Source: an uncultured Alphaproteobacteria bacterium
GTDB lineage: Bacteria > Pseudomonadota > Alphaproteobacteria > Rs-D84
Assembly (NCBI GenBank): GCA_947175875.1
Contig: CAMWON010000005.1
Location: 1-64,000, forward strand
DNA length: 64,000 bases
Direction of reading: 5' to 3'
The position numbers and the translations under genes are program-made. The notes under the pieces are model-generated. The model searched no databases. It was not told the DNA's origin and was given only the letters and a program-made list of their open reading frames with translations. How positions within the stretch are numbered: position 1 is the first letter of the stretch; each line of letters opens with the position of its first letter. This document shows, one piece after another, positions 4,742 through 64,000 of the stretch.

Positions 4742-4769
4742 TTGCAAATCTTAACTTTTATGCTATAAT
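4742..4769 (+). promoter_or_regulatory. sigma70-like promoter for leader copy 1
   Basis: TTGCAA-N16-TATAAT immediately upstream of the structured leader. Confidence 0.6.
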
Positions 4770-4775
4770 TCACAG

Positions 4776-4950
4776 TGCATCGGGTGATTACCGATGTGAG
4801 GCTTCAAAACCTCTTACGAGCTTTAACTCCACAACCGGTTGGAGGGTTGCGAATATATTGAATAAGCAACGCTATTCTCGTAGTAGTTTTGAACCTCCAA
4901 CCGCCCTTCATCACGGCGGTGTTTTTTATTTGCAAAAAACAACGGAGGAT
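4776..4950 (+). promoter_or_regulatory. structured leader RNA, subclass I, copy 1
   Basis: P0 CATCGG/CCGATG; hairpin GAGG-cTTCAAAA-CCTC; loop pairs TTTTGAA (4887-4893); TACGAG(4815-4820):CTCGTA(4877-4882); GGTTGGAGG(4837-4845):CCTCCAACC(4894-4902); terminator-like ACCGCC/GGCGGT plus T6; SD GGAGG 4944-4948. Confidence 0.85.
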
Positions 4951-4953
4951 AAA

Positions 4954-5232
4954 ATGCAAATATATGTTGATGCAAAATGTTTTGGCAATGCAATGCGGCA
5001 TGGACGCAGCAATGCCGGAATAAAAAAACGCGATGTTGCGAAGATTTTTGGAATGACAGCGCATGATTATAATCGTATCGAAGCGGGACGCAAAATATGG
5101 CCGGGGAACTTGATGCTGCGGCTGATGACATTGGCGTTTTTGCAACTGCGCACGCGGCGTGTTAACGGTTCGTCTGGGATGAAAACATTACAGACCGACC
5201 CGGATGCGGCGATATTTGTTGATGCCGATTAA
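4954..5232 (+). CDS. small HTH (XRE-like) DNA-binding protein, 92 aa
   Basis: ATG preceded by GGAGG; KRDVAKIFGMTAHDYNRIEAGRKIWPG helix-turn-helix pattern; the track ORF starting at 4858 runs through the leader. Confidence 0.75.
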   Translation: MQIYVDAKCFGNAMRHGRSNAGIKKRDVAKIFGMTAHDYNRIEAGRKIWPGNLMLRLMTLAFLQLRTRRVNGSSGMKTLQTDPDAAIFVDAD

Positions 5233-16180: not shown

Positions 16181-16400
16181 TCTGAGCGGGGGCTTTCCCT
16201 GCTCGGGGTGTCGAAACCCGGAATACTGCGTTCAAACAAGAACGATAAAAAATTACTCCAACGGATTTATCCGGTTGGAGGGCTGTGAATAATGCGCATT
16301 TGTTGCGCACCAATAAGCACACTATACAGTATTATAGTTTCGAACCTCCAACCGCCTGAATTTTTTCAGCGGTTTTTCAATTCGCGAAAAAAAGGAGGAT
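16181..16400 (+). promoter_or_regulatory. structured leader RNA, subclass I, copy 2
   Basis: P0 GAGC../..GCTC; hairpin CGGG-gtgTCGAAA-CCCG; loop pairs TTTCGA (16338-16343); AATACTG(16222-16228):CAGTATT(16327-16333); CTCCAAC(16256-16262), GGTTGGAGG(16273-16281), CCTCCAACC(16345-16353); AACCGC/GCGGTTTTT; SD GGAGG 16394-16398. Confidence 0.87.
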
Positions 16401-16404
16401 TTGA

Positions 16405-16884
16405 ATGAAAACAATCATAATCAGCGGCCTGTCAGTCATCGCCGCGTTCACACAGGCGCATGCCGAATACAATTGTTGTGGAAAATGCCCGTACGGCACC
16501 AGCGCATCCGTATGCACGGAAAACTGTTGTCACGCAAAATACGGCGTAATAGGGGGACAAACAAGATACAGCGACCCGGACAATAACGGCGTAATCACCA
16601 TAACAAAATACACCGACACAGTTACATGCGCCACCAGCGCCAGTGGCTCAAATTTTGTCAGATGCGGCGTGCAAAATTCTTACATCTGCGCCCAGGGCTA
16701 TTACGGCTCACCAACACTGCTTAACAAAACTTGCACAAAATGTCCGTCATCCGGCGGCGTCGCCGGAACAACAACCGGCACCGGCGCAACGAAAATAACG
16801 GAATGTTATATCCCGGCGGGCACTGCATTTTCAGACACCACCGGCGCCGGCACATATTCGGAAAACTGTTATTACAGCGAATAA
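16405..16884 (+). CDS. secreted Cys-rich protein (GYYG / CYxPxGTxFSDTTGxGTY family)
   Basis: Signal peptide MKTIIISGLSVIAAFTQAHA; GYYG..C..CP; C-terminal TECYIPAGTAFSDTTGAGTYSENCYYSE. Confidence 0.8.
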   Translation: MKTIIISGLSVIAAFTQAHAEYNCCGKCPYGTSASVCTENCCHAKYGVIGGQTRYSDPDNNGVITITKYTDTVTCATSASGSNFVRCGVQNSYICAQGYYGSPTLLNKTCTKCPSSGGVAGTTTGTGATKITECYIPAGTAFSDTTGAGTYSENCYYSE

Positions 16885-21121: not shown

Positions 21122-21259
21122 GTTTGAATAATAGCATTTGTCGGAATAGGTTCCGCTGCCGGTGGAATCGCTGAATGTCGGTCCCGACGGCAGATAACAT
21201 GACGTTATGGACGTTGCGCTGGCCACGCCGATAATGGCGGCGGTTAATAATTTTTTCAT
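21119..21259 (-). CDS. 46-aa minimal member of the Cys-rich secreted family (absent from the ORF track)
   Basis: Translated by hand: MKKLLTAAIIGVASATSITSCYLPSGPTFSDSTGSGTYSDKCYYSN; SD GGAGG 21265-21269. Confidence 0.75.
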   Translation of the reverse strand: MKKLLTAAIIGVASATSITSCYLPSGPTFSDSTGSGTYSDKCYYSN

Positions 21260-21261
21260 TC

Positions 21262-21470
21262 AAACCTCCTTTTTTCAAAAGAATGAAAAAACCGCTGAAA
21301 AATTCAGGCGGTTGGAGGCTTGAAACTATCTTATAAATAGCGGGCTTATTCAAAATATTCGCCACCCTCCAACCAGTTTTAGATTGGAGATACACATGCA
21401 TGCTATCGCGATGCATCGCGTTATAAGAGAGGTTTCAAGTCCTCATTCGGGGAATGCCCCCGAACAATAA
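21262..21470 (-). promoter_or_regulatory. structured leader RNA, subclass I, copy 3
   Basis: Minus strand: P0 TTCGGGG/CCCCGAA; hairpin GAGG-acTTGAAA-CCTC; loop pairs TTTCAA(G) (21319-21325); TCTTATAA:TTATAAGA; CTCCAATC, GGTTGGAGG (21366-21374), CCTCCAACC (21310-21318); AACCGC/GCGGTT; SD. Confidence 0.87.
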
Positions 21471-42135: not shown

Positions 42136-42395
42136 CAAGAATTCACAGGGATCTGAATTCAGGGACGTAAGAAATCCCATACAACATCGATGCAGTAATG
42201 CATTGAATCCGCACAATAGCGGCGCAAATGCGCCCGTTATTATATACCCCGCACTTAAACTGTCGGGGAGCCGTCGGCTATACCACAGGGCATGCCCAAA
42301 GGCCGACGGGGTCATTATGTTGTATGATTTTCTTAACTCCCCGACTGCCAATTCCCTTGGCGGTCATTTGTTTTTACCAAACAAAAAGGAGTTGG
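42136..42395 (+). promoter_or_regulatory. structured leader RNA, subclass II, copy 1
   Basis: GGGA-cgtAAGAAA-TCCC hairpin; loop pairs TTTCTT (42329-42334); CATACAACAT(42178-42187):ATGTTGTATG(42317-42326); GTCGGGGAG(42262-42270):CTCCCCGAC(42337-42345); GACTGCC/GGCGGTC; SD GGAG; TTGTCT-N17-TATAAT promoter upstream. Confidence 0.88.
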
Positions 42396-42398
42396 AAA

Positions 42399-43223
42399 TT
42401 GAAAAAAATCACCATAACATTAGCGGCGCTAATGGAAATAACCGGCACAGCCTATGGTGCCTGGGACACAAGTACGCGCATTGACGGCGTCCACCTGTCA
42501 AGTTGCACATCAAAATATATTGATGTAAATGCAATAGAAAGCCTTAACTACGAAGATAACGCCTGGAAACTGGTTATGGGGCGCAAAAACGGCTGGGGAG
42601 GAAGTAGCTGTACTCTAACCATGACCGGTGAATGCAGTAAAGCGCTTATCGGTATAATGGGCAAGGAAGACTTTGATAGTGCCTCTATAGATGGGACGCT
42701 AACCTCAAGTATATCCTGTGCATGCAATTCTAATAGTGATTGTGTAACGGGATTTAAATGCAGCCCAGCAGGCTCCGGCCAAAAATACGGCTTTTGCACA
42801 CAAATTTCAAATTTTTGCACCACAGACAGCCAATGCGATAACGACAAAGGCTATGTATGTGTAAACAAAGCATGCACACAAAAGTGCACCATAAACACAA
42901 AACCGGATGATACTGGTTGGGAAATAGCTGCGCGTGATACTTCTGATTATTATAACTTTCCGATGATTGAAAAAAGCTCTACCTATAAATGCTCTTCGGC
43001 CGGCAGATGGACCGGAACAACAGCTTACCGTTGCGCCGCACATTACTATGGCGCGCCGACATCTGCCAGCTCAAAATGCAGTCGCTGTCCGGACTATCCG
43101 GGTCCGGCCGAAGCACCCGCAGGCTCGACAAAAATAACGGATTGCTATTATCCAAGAGGAACGGAATACAACGATTCCACAGGAGCTTTTAAAATTATCG
43201 GCGGCGACTGTCATCATGATTAA
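42399..43223 (+). CDS. secreted Cys-rich family protein (TTG start)
   Basis: GGAG then TTGAAAAAAATCACC; signal peptide KKITITLAALMEITGTAYG; C-terminal CSRCPDYPG...TKITDCYYPRGTEYNDSTGAF. Confidence 0.75.
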   Translation: MKKITITLAALMEITGTAYGAWDTSTRIDGVHLSSCTSKYIDVNAIESLNYEDNAWKLVMGRKNGWGGSSCTLTMTGECSKALIGIMGKEDFDSASIDGTLTSSISCACNSNSDCVTGFKCSPAGSGQKYGFCTQISNFCTTDSQCDNDKGYVCVNKACTQKCTINTKPDDTGWEIAARDTSDYYNFPMIEKSSTYKCSSAGRWTGTTAYRCAAHYYGAPTSASSKCSRCPDYPGPAEAPAGSTKITDCYYPRGTEYNDSTGAFKIIGGDCHHD

Positions 43224-63048: not shown

Positions 63049-63072
63049 AGCGCCCCAAACGGGGCGTTTTTA
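63049..63072. terminator. Rho-independent terminator between convergent genes
   Basis: agcgccccaaacggggcgttttta. Confidence 0.82.
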
Positions 63073-63570
63073 ATTTTGGTAATAACAGGCGTCCGTATAT
63101 GTGCCGCTGCCGGTGGTGTCGCTGAAAGTGGTGCCGGACGGCAGATAGCATGCGGTAATTGCGGTTGCGCCCGCCAGGGCGGTTGTGCCGTAAACGCCGC
63201 CCGATGACGGACAGCGCGTGCATGATTGCCCGCTGCCGTAATATCCCTTCTTGCACTGGTATTCGCATGAGGCTTTTATTGCGGTTGTTTTGCATCTTAC
63301 CTGATAATTTTGACCGCTGACGCTTGTCCATAAGGTGCCCGGGCACTCGGTCGGACAAGTCGCTGGCTCAATTGGATCTATCGGGTCGATTATTAGAGAG
63401 GAGCAGCCTGCCTGTGCGCATGTTTCACTGCTGCTGCGGCAGCAGTTTGTTTCGCCTTCCATAATCGGGCACATAACCGTGTATGCGCCGCCGCATGTGC
63501 GGGCGCCGGCATCGTTTGCCAGTATGATGCCGACAACGGCCCCGCATAATAAGGTAATTGTTTTTTTCAT
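63070..63570 (-). CDS. secreted Cys-rich family protein
   Basis: Signal peptide; CEYQCKKGYYGSGQSCTRCPSSGGVYGTT..ITACYLPSGTTFSDTTGSGTYTDACYYQN. Confidence 0.8.
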   Translation of the reverse strand: MKKTITLLCGAVVGIILANDAGARTCGGAYTVMCPIMEGETNCCRSSSETCAQAGCSSLIIDPIDPIEPATCPTECPGTLWTSVSGQNYQVRCKTTAIKASCEYQCKKGYYGSGQSCTRCPSSGGVYGTTALAGATAITACYLPSGTTFSDTTGSGTYTDACYYQN

Positions 63571-63572
63571 GA

Positions 63573-63840
63573 TTTCAAATCCCTGTTTTTGTGTTAAACA
63601 AAACGCCGCCTTGGAATTGGCGGCCGGGGATTTCAGAAAATCATAACATAAAATGACCCCGTGACTTTTGGGTAATCCCTGTTATATGGTCACGGATCCC
63701 CGACCGGTTAGAATCGGGTGATATAAAACACACGGCGCATCATTGCGCCGACGTATTTTGTCGGATTCAGTGCGTACCACCGCACCGTTATGTTATGGGA
63801 TTTCTGAGGTCCCTGAGCCAACATCCCTGTTGATTCAGTG
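63573..63840 (-). promoter_or_regulatory. structured leader RNA, subclass II, copy 2
   Basis: Minus strand: CAAC-agggat-GTTG; GGGA-cctCAGAAA-TCCC; loop pairs TTTCTG; CATAACATAA:TTATGTTATG; GGTCGGGGAT:ATCCCCGGCC; GCCGCC/GGCGGC; GGGATTT SD region; TTTACT-N17-TATACT upstream. Confidence 0.88.
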
Positions 63841-63910: not shown

Positions 63911-63939
63911 TTGTATCTGAATTTTTATTTTGTTATAGT
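63911..63939 (+). promoter_or_regulatory. sigma70-like promoter for the truncated leader
   Basis: TTGTAT-N17-TATAGT. Confidence 0.55.
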
Positions 63940-63944
63940 CTAGC

Positions 63945-64000
63945 TTGGTAATGGGAAACCATTACTGGGCTTAGTAACCCATAACATTTGGTGTCAGTGA
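63945..64000 (+). promoter_or_regulatory. partial structured leader RNA, cut by window end
   Basis: GGTAATGG-gaaa-CCATTAC (P0) then GGG-cttagtaa-CCC and CATAACATttggtg, matching the 5' order of subclass II. Confidence 0.6.

Follow-up and report, generated by a model that had tools for sequence, protein, structure and literature searches.

A probable C4/sRNA-Xcc1-type regulatory leader with a predicted attenuator at the end of an alphaproteobacterial DNA window

The C4 RNA of phages P1 and P7 is processed by RNase P, and its b′ segment blocks a ribosome-binding site (PMC5320573). In phage P4, CI brings about premature termination, and IsrK of Gifsy-1 shifts its own long transcript between two structures (PMC4825925). 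A further RNA, sRNA-Xcc1, is treated as a trans-acting sRNA in the literature consulted and is located upstream of symE in Xanthomonas integrons (PMC2996969, PMC12444791). No link between sRNA-Xcc1 and C4 was found in the open-access literature consulted, and no clan is shown in the Rfam entry for sRNA-Xcc1.

The DNA analysed here (the window) is a stretch of 64,000 nucleotides from an uncultured member of Rs-D84, the order of Enterousia (PMC12306168); the source genus appears to be Candidatus Enterousia. The window comprises positions 1–64000 of contig C5, which extends to 131,735, in a genome of 953 kb and nine contigs; positions past 64000 continue the same numbering. A sequence-only reading had taken the end of the window as the start of a truncated leader, and all of the elements that it named lie exactly where it placed them: a σ70-like promoter, TTGTAT-N17-TATAGT (63911–63939, + strand), a first hairpin formed by GGTAATGG-GAAA-CCATTAC and its flanks (63944–63969, +) and a second hairpin, GGG-CTTAGTAA-CCC (63967–63980, +), after which comes CATAACATTTGG. 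The loop of the second hairpin (within 63967–63980, +) holds segment b, the equivalent of a1 in P1, and its partner d, GTTACTAA, lies past the window at 64092–64099. Segment e, CATTTGG (63985–63991, +), is the equivalent of b1 in P1 and pairs with e′, CCAAATG (64081–64087), also past the window. The variable region begins at 63992–64000 (+), with a small hairpin that runs to 64005, and is followed by hairpins P5 (64016–64044), P6 with the conserved loop GAATATATTGAATA (64053–64066) and P7 (64073–64092). The 3′ arm of P5, GGCTGGGGT (64039–64047), has an alternative partner in the anti-SD strand ACTCCAGCC (64100–64108).

Much of what had been foretold for the adjoining contig sequence (stretch L009) is present there: TTACTAA (64093–64099), the anti-SD strand, a GC hairpin with a T-run, i.e. 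a terminator (64108–64130), and the SD CTGGGAG (64146–64152). The complementary strands had been expected 100–250 nt past the edge and stand slightly closer, at 81–99 nt. The predicted (AA)ATGTTATG is missing, and CATTTGG/CCAAATG stands there instead; because these two strands pair and ATGTTATG is absent, the pairing register of the edge leader is shifted. A small secreted Cys-rich protein encoded on the + strand had been anticipated; the strand and a signal-peptide-like start hold, but the gene (ATG at 64161, +) encodes a PAP2-superfamily phosphatase of 178 residues with no cysteine. An ORF with a ParB CE domain (Pfam Parb-CE) lies near the PAP2 gene (L009:2207–2980, −). The edge leader (L009:940–1175) folds at −77.6 kcal/mol, compared with −50.7 ± 4.2 kcal/mol for shuffled sequences (z = −6.4; none of 200 as low). 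We consider it likely that the edge feature is the start of a regulatory leader of about 200 nt of the C4/sRNA-Xcc1 type, a chromosomal attenuator derived from such RNA and predicted to be off by default. This goes beyond the sequence-only reading in treating the pairing segments as a code particular to each copy and the GC hairpin as an intrinsic terminator, and in proposing kinship with antisense RNA of the C4/sRNA-Xcc1 type.

Copies were anchored for alignment on the conserved GAATATATTGAATA loop, and a covariance model, R1, was built from 76 seed copies; as the sole search key, the 14-nt P6 loop missed subtypes B and C. The edge copy scores 96 bits (E = 6e-19) in R1, a score that is not independent evidence alone since this copy is itself among the seed sequences. 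At E < 1e-3, R1 matches exactly five more copies in the window, and the edge copy groups with them, as expected of a sixth leader of one class; the copy at 21276 belongs to the seed and those at 4821, 16257, 42246 and 63590 lie outside it. The first leader (4764–4953, +; R1 core 4821–4935, 102 bits; −10 box TATAAT) carries b/d TTCAAAAC/GTTTTGAA and e/e′ TTACGAG/CTCGTAG and precedes the gene for an HTH-like protein of 92 residues (4954–5229, +). The core at 16257–16388 (+, 62 bits) belongs to a subtype whose P6 loop contains an inserted stem (GAATA...CAATAAG), with b/d TCGAAAC/GTTTCGA and e/e′ AATACTG/CAGTATT, and the gene behind it encodes a Cys-rich protein of 159 residues with a signal-peptide-like start (16405–16884, +). 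A secreted-like protein of 46 residues (21122–21259, −) follows the core at 21276–21390 (−, 92 bits), where the codes are CTTGAAAC/GTTTCAAG for b/d and TCTTATAA/TTATAAGA for e/e′. The remaining two cores have a subtype B P6. One (42246–42380, +, 28.7 bits; b/d TAAGAAA/TTTCTTA, e/e′ CATACAAC/GTTGTATG) stands before a gene for a Cys-rich secreted-like protein with a TTG start (42399–43223, +); the other (63590–63721, −, 34.7 bits; b/d TCAGAAA/TTTCTGA, e/e′ CATAACAT/ATGTTATG) stands before one for a Cys-rich secreted-like protein of 166 residues (63070–63570, −). The e′ strand of this neighbouring leader is the likely source of the ATGTTATG that had been predicted past the edge. DNA similar to the 63070–63570 gene and its leader region occurs at several further places in the genome at 69–77% identity, as a dispersed paralogous family.

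In the 953 kb genome as a whole, R1 finds 57 copies at E ≤ 1e-4 and 70 at E ≤ 0.1. With the leader as query, Blast picked out 30 places in this genome at E ≤ 10 and had hits in 85 of the 96 species of the genus. Within the family (Candidatus Enterousia and its relatives), R1 detected the leader in 112 of 113 genomes and all 13 genera; outside the genus, a search of the class was positive in 15 of 286 genomes, every one from another family. Most of 20 stretches from those other families have the same layout but other P6 loops. Homologues of the leader are seen in about ten alphaproteobacterial families besides that of Enterousia, their P6 loops being of the form AAAATAAGG-stem-GAATATGC or GTTATGTCCA-stem-TAAAA, and the motif is also seen on four IMG/VR viral contigs, in one of which the next gene encodes the phage regulator Rha.

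Behind the 65 copies parsed in the own genome stand 32 secreted ORFs, mostly Cys-rich, as assigned by a crude hydrophobicity rule that was wrong in at least two calls. Other ORFs follow 16 copies, several being HTH-like and some secreted-like ones missed by the rule; nine copies precede another leader and eight have no clear ORF behind them. Among 104 downstream proteins from many species, HTH domains are the top Pfam matches (HTH_31, 16), one protein is the phage regulator Rha, and 59 look secreted, 41 of which contain at least 4% Cys. An RNA of the probable C4/sRNA-Xcc1 type has spread to some 60 loci of a reduced gut bacterium, before genes for secreted and small DNA-binding proteins. One leader (C2:58996–59124) stands before the apparent start of a DNA cytosine methyltransferase (FIDLFAGIGGFHLAF), and another of 92.6 bits (C3:141569–141682, −) has no clear ORF behind it and is possibly a free RNA gene.

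The leaders open with a promoter of their own and two hairpins, the second of which has b in its loop. Segment e, an optional variable stem and the P5 hairpin come next, and then a domain of about 72 nt that comprises the closing stem P5alt, P6, P7 (whose loop holds e′) and strand d; an intrinsic terminator, an SD and the gene follow. P5alt, P6, P7 and the terminator covary, with 20 of 23 pairs changed on both sides, a value reached in none of 500 shuffles and far above that of slid controls. When hairpin 2 was located independently of d, with d taken from the strand before CTCC, all seven b/d pairs were present in 78 of 85 copies, compared with 3.4% between copies, and up to four Watson–Crick pair types were seen per position. 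Fifty-five own-genome copies could be parsed for both pairings, b/d and e/e′, whose presence was the basis of their selection; at least seven contiguous b/d pairs occur in 53 of them, compared with 4.3% in cross-comparisons, and e/e′ cross-matches amount to 6.5%. A perfect TATAAT stands at the equivalent site, about 40 nt before b, in 31 of the 55 (6% when shuffled), and 50 have a U-rich tail past the terminator. A copy number of about 60 and the presence of tandem arrays might also be expected if a mobile or recombinogenic DNA repeat had spread upstream of surface-protein genes without any function as RNA. This explanation is rendered highly improbable by the compensatory changes in all helices, b/d and e/e′ included, by the fixed positions of promoter and terminator and by the fact that most copies are followed, at an almost constant distance, by a gene on the same strand.

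The (d, e′) combinations of the 55 parsed copies are all distinct. None of 93 copy pairs with a body identity of 85% or more has both code segments in common, and identity in these pairs is 0.66 for d and 0.54 for e′, compared with about 0.60 and 0.50 in unrelated copies. In each helix, the two strands must have changed in concert, which suggests selection for difference, although gene conversion homogenizing the bodies would look similar. These copy-specific codes make it possible to test whether short RNA codes can switch dozens of bacterial genes independently. Active avoidance of cross-talk is not borne out: among 2970 ordered pairs there are 12 with cross-compatible codes, six of them from tandem neighbours, where multiplication of the separate rates of cross-matching predicts about eight. 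The codes therefore behave as random rather than as actively separated.

The codes also bear on the proposal of a metabolite or ion riboswitch, in which the P6 loop GAAUAUAUUGAAUAA and the junction would form the ligand pocket, the b/d and e/e′ helices would be structural and the terminator would serve as the expression platform. The overlap of terminator and antiterminator and the genome-wide use upstream of many genes fit such a device, as does the conservation of the P6 loop, columns 32–45 of which are nearly invariant among copies that were collected in part by that loop. Structural pairings should, however, drift with the body, yet the codes are near background identity where bodies are 90% identical. 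Moreover, subtype B and other families carry different modules in place of the P6 loop, the genes behind the leaders have no common pathway and the layout is that of phage C4. A riboswitch is thus unlikely.

Predicted folds are consistent with the preferred reading, that of an attenuator. Points against it are the eight of 65 parsed copies with no obvious gene behind them and the conserved P6 loop, which could be a binding site for a ligand or protein instead. In unconstrained minimum-energy folds, the b/d helix is present in all 55 own-genome copies and P5alt in none. Forcing b/d and e/e′ retains P5 in 54 and the terminator in 53, whereas forcing P5alt retains the terminator in none and yields a state weaker by a median of 12 kcal/mol, as calculated for nested structures, with pseudoknots and folding kinetics outside the model. 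The AACC columns (88–91) are common to P5alt and the terminator, which, together with the forced folds, makes the two mutually exclusive, as in an attenuator. In the predicted default state, b–d and e–e′ would pair in a manner compatible with P5, leaving AACCACC free for the terminator and the gene off. In the predicted alternative state, the 3′ domain would adopt a C4-like fold in which P5alt takes up AACC, so that no terminator would form and the gene would be on.

Comparison with C4 of P1 and P7 (RF01695, RF03163; c4-icd-ant in P1) reveals the same order of parts: a promoter and a first hairpin, a second hairpin whose loop carries a1, then b1 and a variable hairpin with a T-run. The three-way junction of P1 C4, which places one antisense segment in the third hairpin loop and one in the junction itself, is likewise found in the Enterousia domain, and the leaders carry the equivalents of the upstream a1/b1 complementary targets in the same transcript. 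In both, the closing stem starts with GG and ends with ACC. The distance from the −10 box to a1 is 37 nt in P1 and 40 nt in Enterousia, that from a1 to b1 is 14 and 12 nt, and the domain is 77 and 72 nt long; the annotated P1 record bears out the order and similar spacing of −10, a1, b1, hairpin and C4. A search of Rfam with the leaders at gathering and relaxed thresholds gave no match over the cut-off, C4, T-box and other riboswitches included. The C4 model (RF01695), in which P1 scores 68.8, misses the Enterousia leaders, and R1 misses P1 C4.

Unlike in C4, an intrinsic terminator in Enterousia overlaps the closing stem, which is short and weaker than the self-pairing. In P1, energy is lowest in the C4 fold, and a1/b1 are not paired with their own C4; in Enterousia this balance is reversed and the P1 mechanism is therefore not simply transferable. 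Counterparts of a2/b2 were not found near the ribosome-binding site of the Enterousia leaders, where own-copy downstream complementarity equals the cross-copy background. Because of the lack of a2/b2, the terminator in their stead and the preference for self-pairing over the C4 fold, the leaders are not filed as C4, and we regard them as working in the manner of a C4/CI system that has become an attenuator in cis. IsrK/STnc1160 of Gifsy-1 and SeqA/CI of P4 resemble them in having complementary segments in an upstream RNA and a downstream processed RNA and in forming two alternative structures, with P4 CI working through transcription termination, but these are single-locus phage regulators without a family of per-locus codes. 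The P1 a1/b1 stretch matches isrK below the cut-off.

The sRNA-Xcc1 model (RF02221) weakly matches Enterousia copies, always over the P5alt–P6–P7 core, with a best own-genome score of 46.7 bits against a cut-off of 53. Its 87-nt consensus structure is found in the leaders: a closing stem, P6 with an AAUA...GAAU internal loop, P7, a single strand and NCC. The Rfam model spans the 3′ domain alone. In 30 canonical RF02221 loci, drawn from across the phylum, upstream segments b and e are complementary to d and e′, and in many of these loci the targets recur downstream, close to the SD. A complement of e′ of at least 7 nt occurs within 110 nt downstream in 13 of the 30 (3.7% in cross-comparisons), and both parts are matched downstream (at least 6 nt) in 14 (7.6%). 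Together, upstream and downstream targets give the a1/b1, a′/b′, a2/b2 plan of phage P1 C4. The poorly understood sRNA-Xcc1 gains likely cis partners and targets, and is joined with an orphan leader family in one architecture known from phage immunity. Several canonical RF02221 loci sit before phage-like genes.

These targets at the next gene would also suit a classical antisense RNA acting in trans, for which repression of other mRNAs by a C4-like sRNA would be the main role and downstream attenuation secondary. Unlike the Enterousia leaders, sRNA-Xcc1 is described as a trans-acting sRNA of 88 nt, a mapped size that fits the domain from P5alt to NCC. The C4-like 'Group 1' sRNAs of Acinetobacter baumannii resemble the leaders in their many chromosomal copies and varying a′ segment, but are reported as free sRNAs, with no attached terminator-controlled genes reported in the text consulted. 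Against a mainly trans-acting role in Enterousia stand the nearly constant position of the gene start, about 57–62 nt from the CCTCC strand, the missing a2/b2 and the 12 kcal/mol by which the C4 fold is weaker than the self-pairing, and we consider such a role unlikely.

The attenuator that we favour may nevertheless have a component in trans. By analogy with C4, the ON-fold domain, which starts with GG and ends with NCC as in the RNase P substrate, might be released as a small RNA. In this RNA, d and e′ could base-pair with the b and e segments of transcripts newly made at the same locus. Such action would be locus-specific, because every locus has its own b/e code. Occupation of b and e would leave d and e′ of the nascent transcript free and should thereby favour readthrough, a positive feedback for which P4 CI offers a precedent of opposite sign. 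One could go further and imagine a C4 phage-immunity RNA domesticated for genome-wide addressing, with about 60 private two-part codes, default-off genes, heritable on/off states maintained by positive feedback and a switchable repertoire of surface proteins; we hold this extension to be possible but doubtful. Three tandem pairs in the own genome have both code parts in common in reciprocal tests; tandem code sharing was dropped as proof of trans action, as code parts are mixed among the copies of arrays in other species. Such arrays comprise two to five leaders and are seen in several stretches, several members having their own −10 box, and some members carry the same code despite different bodies.
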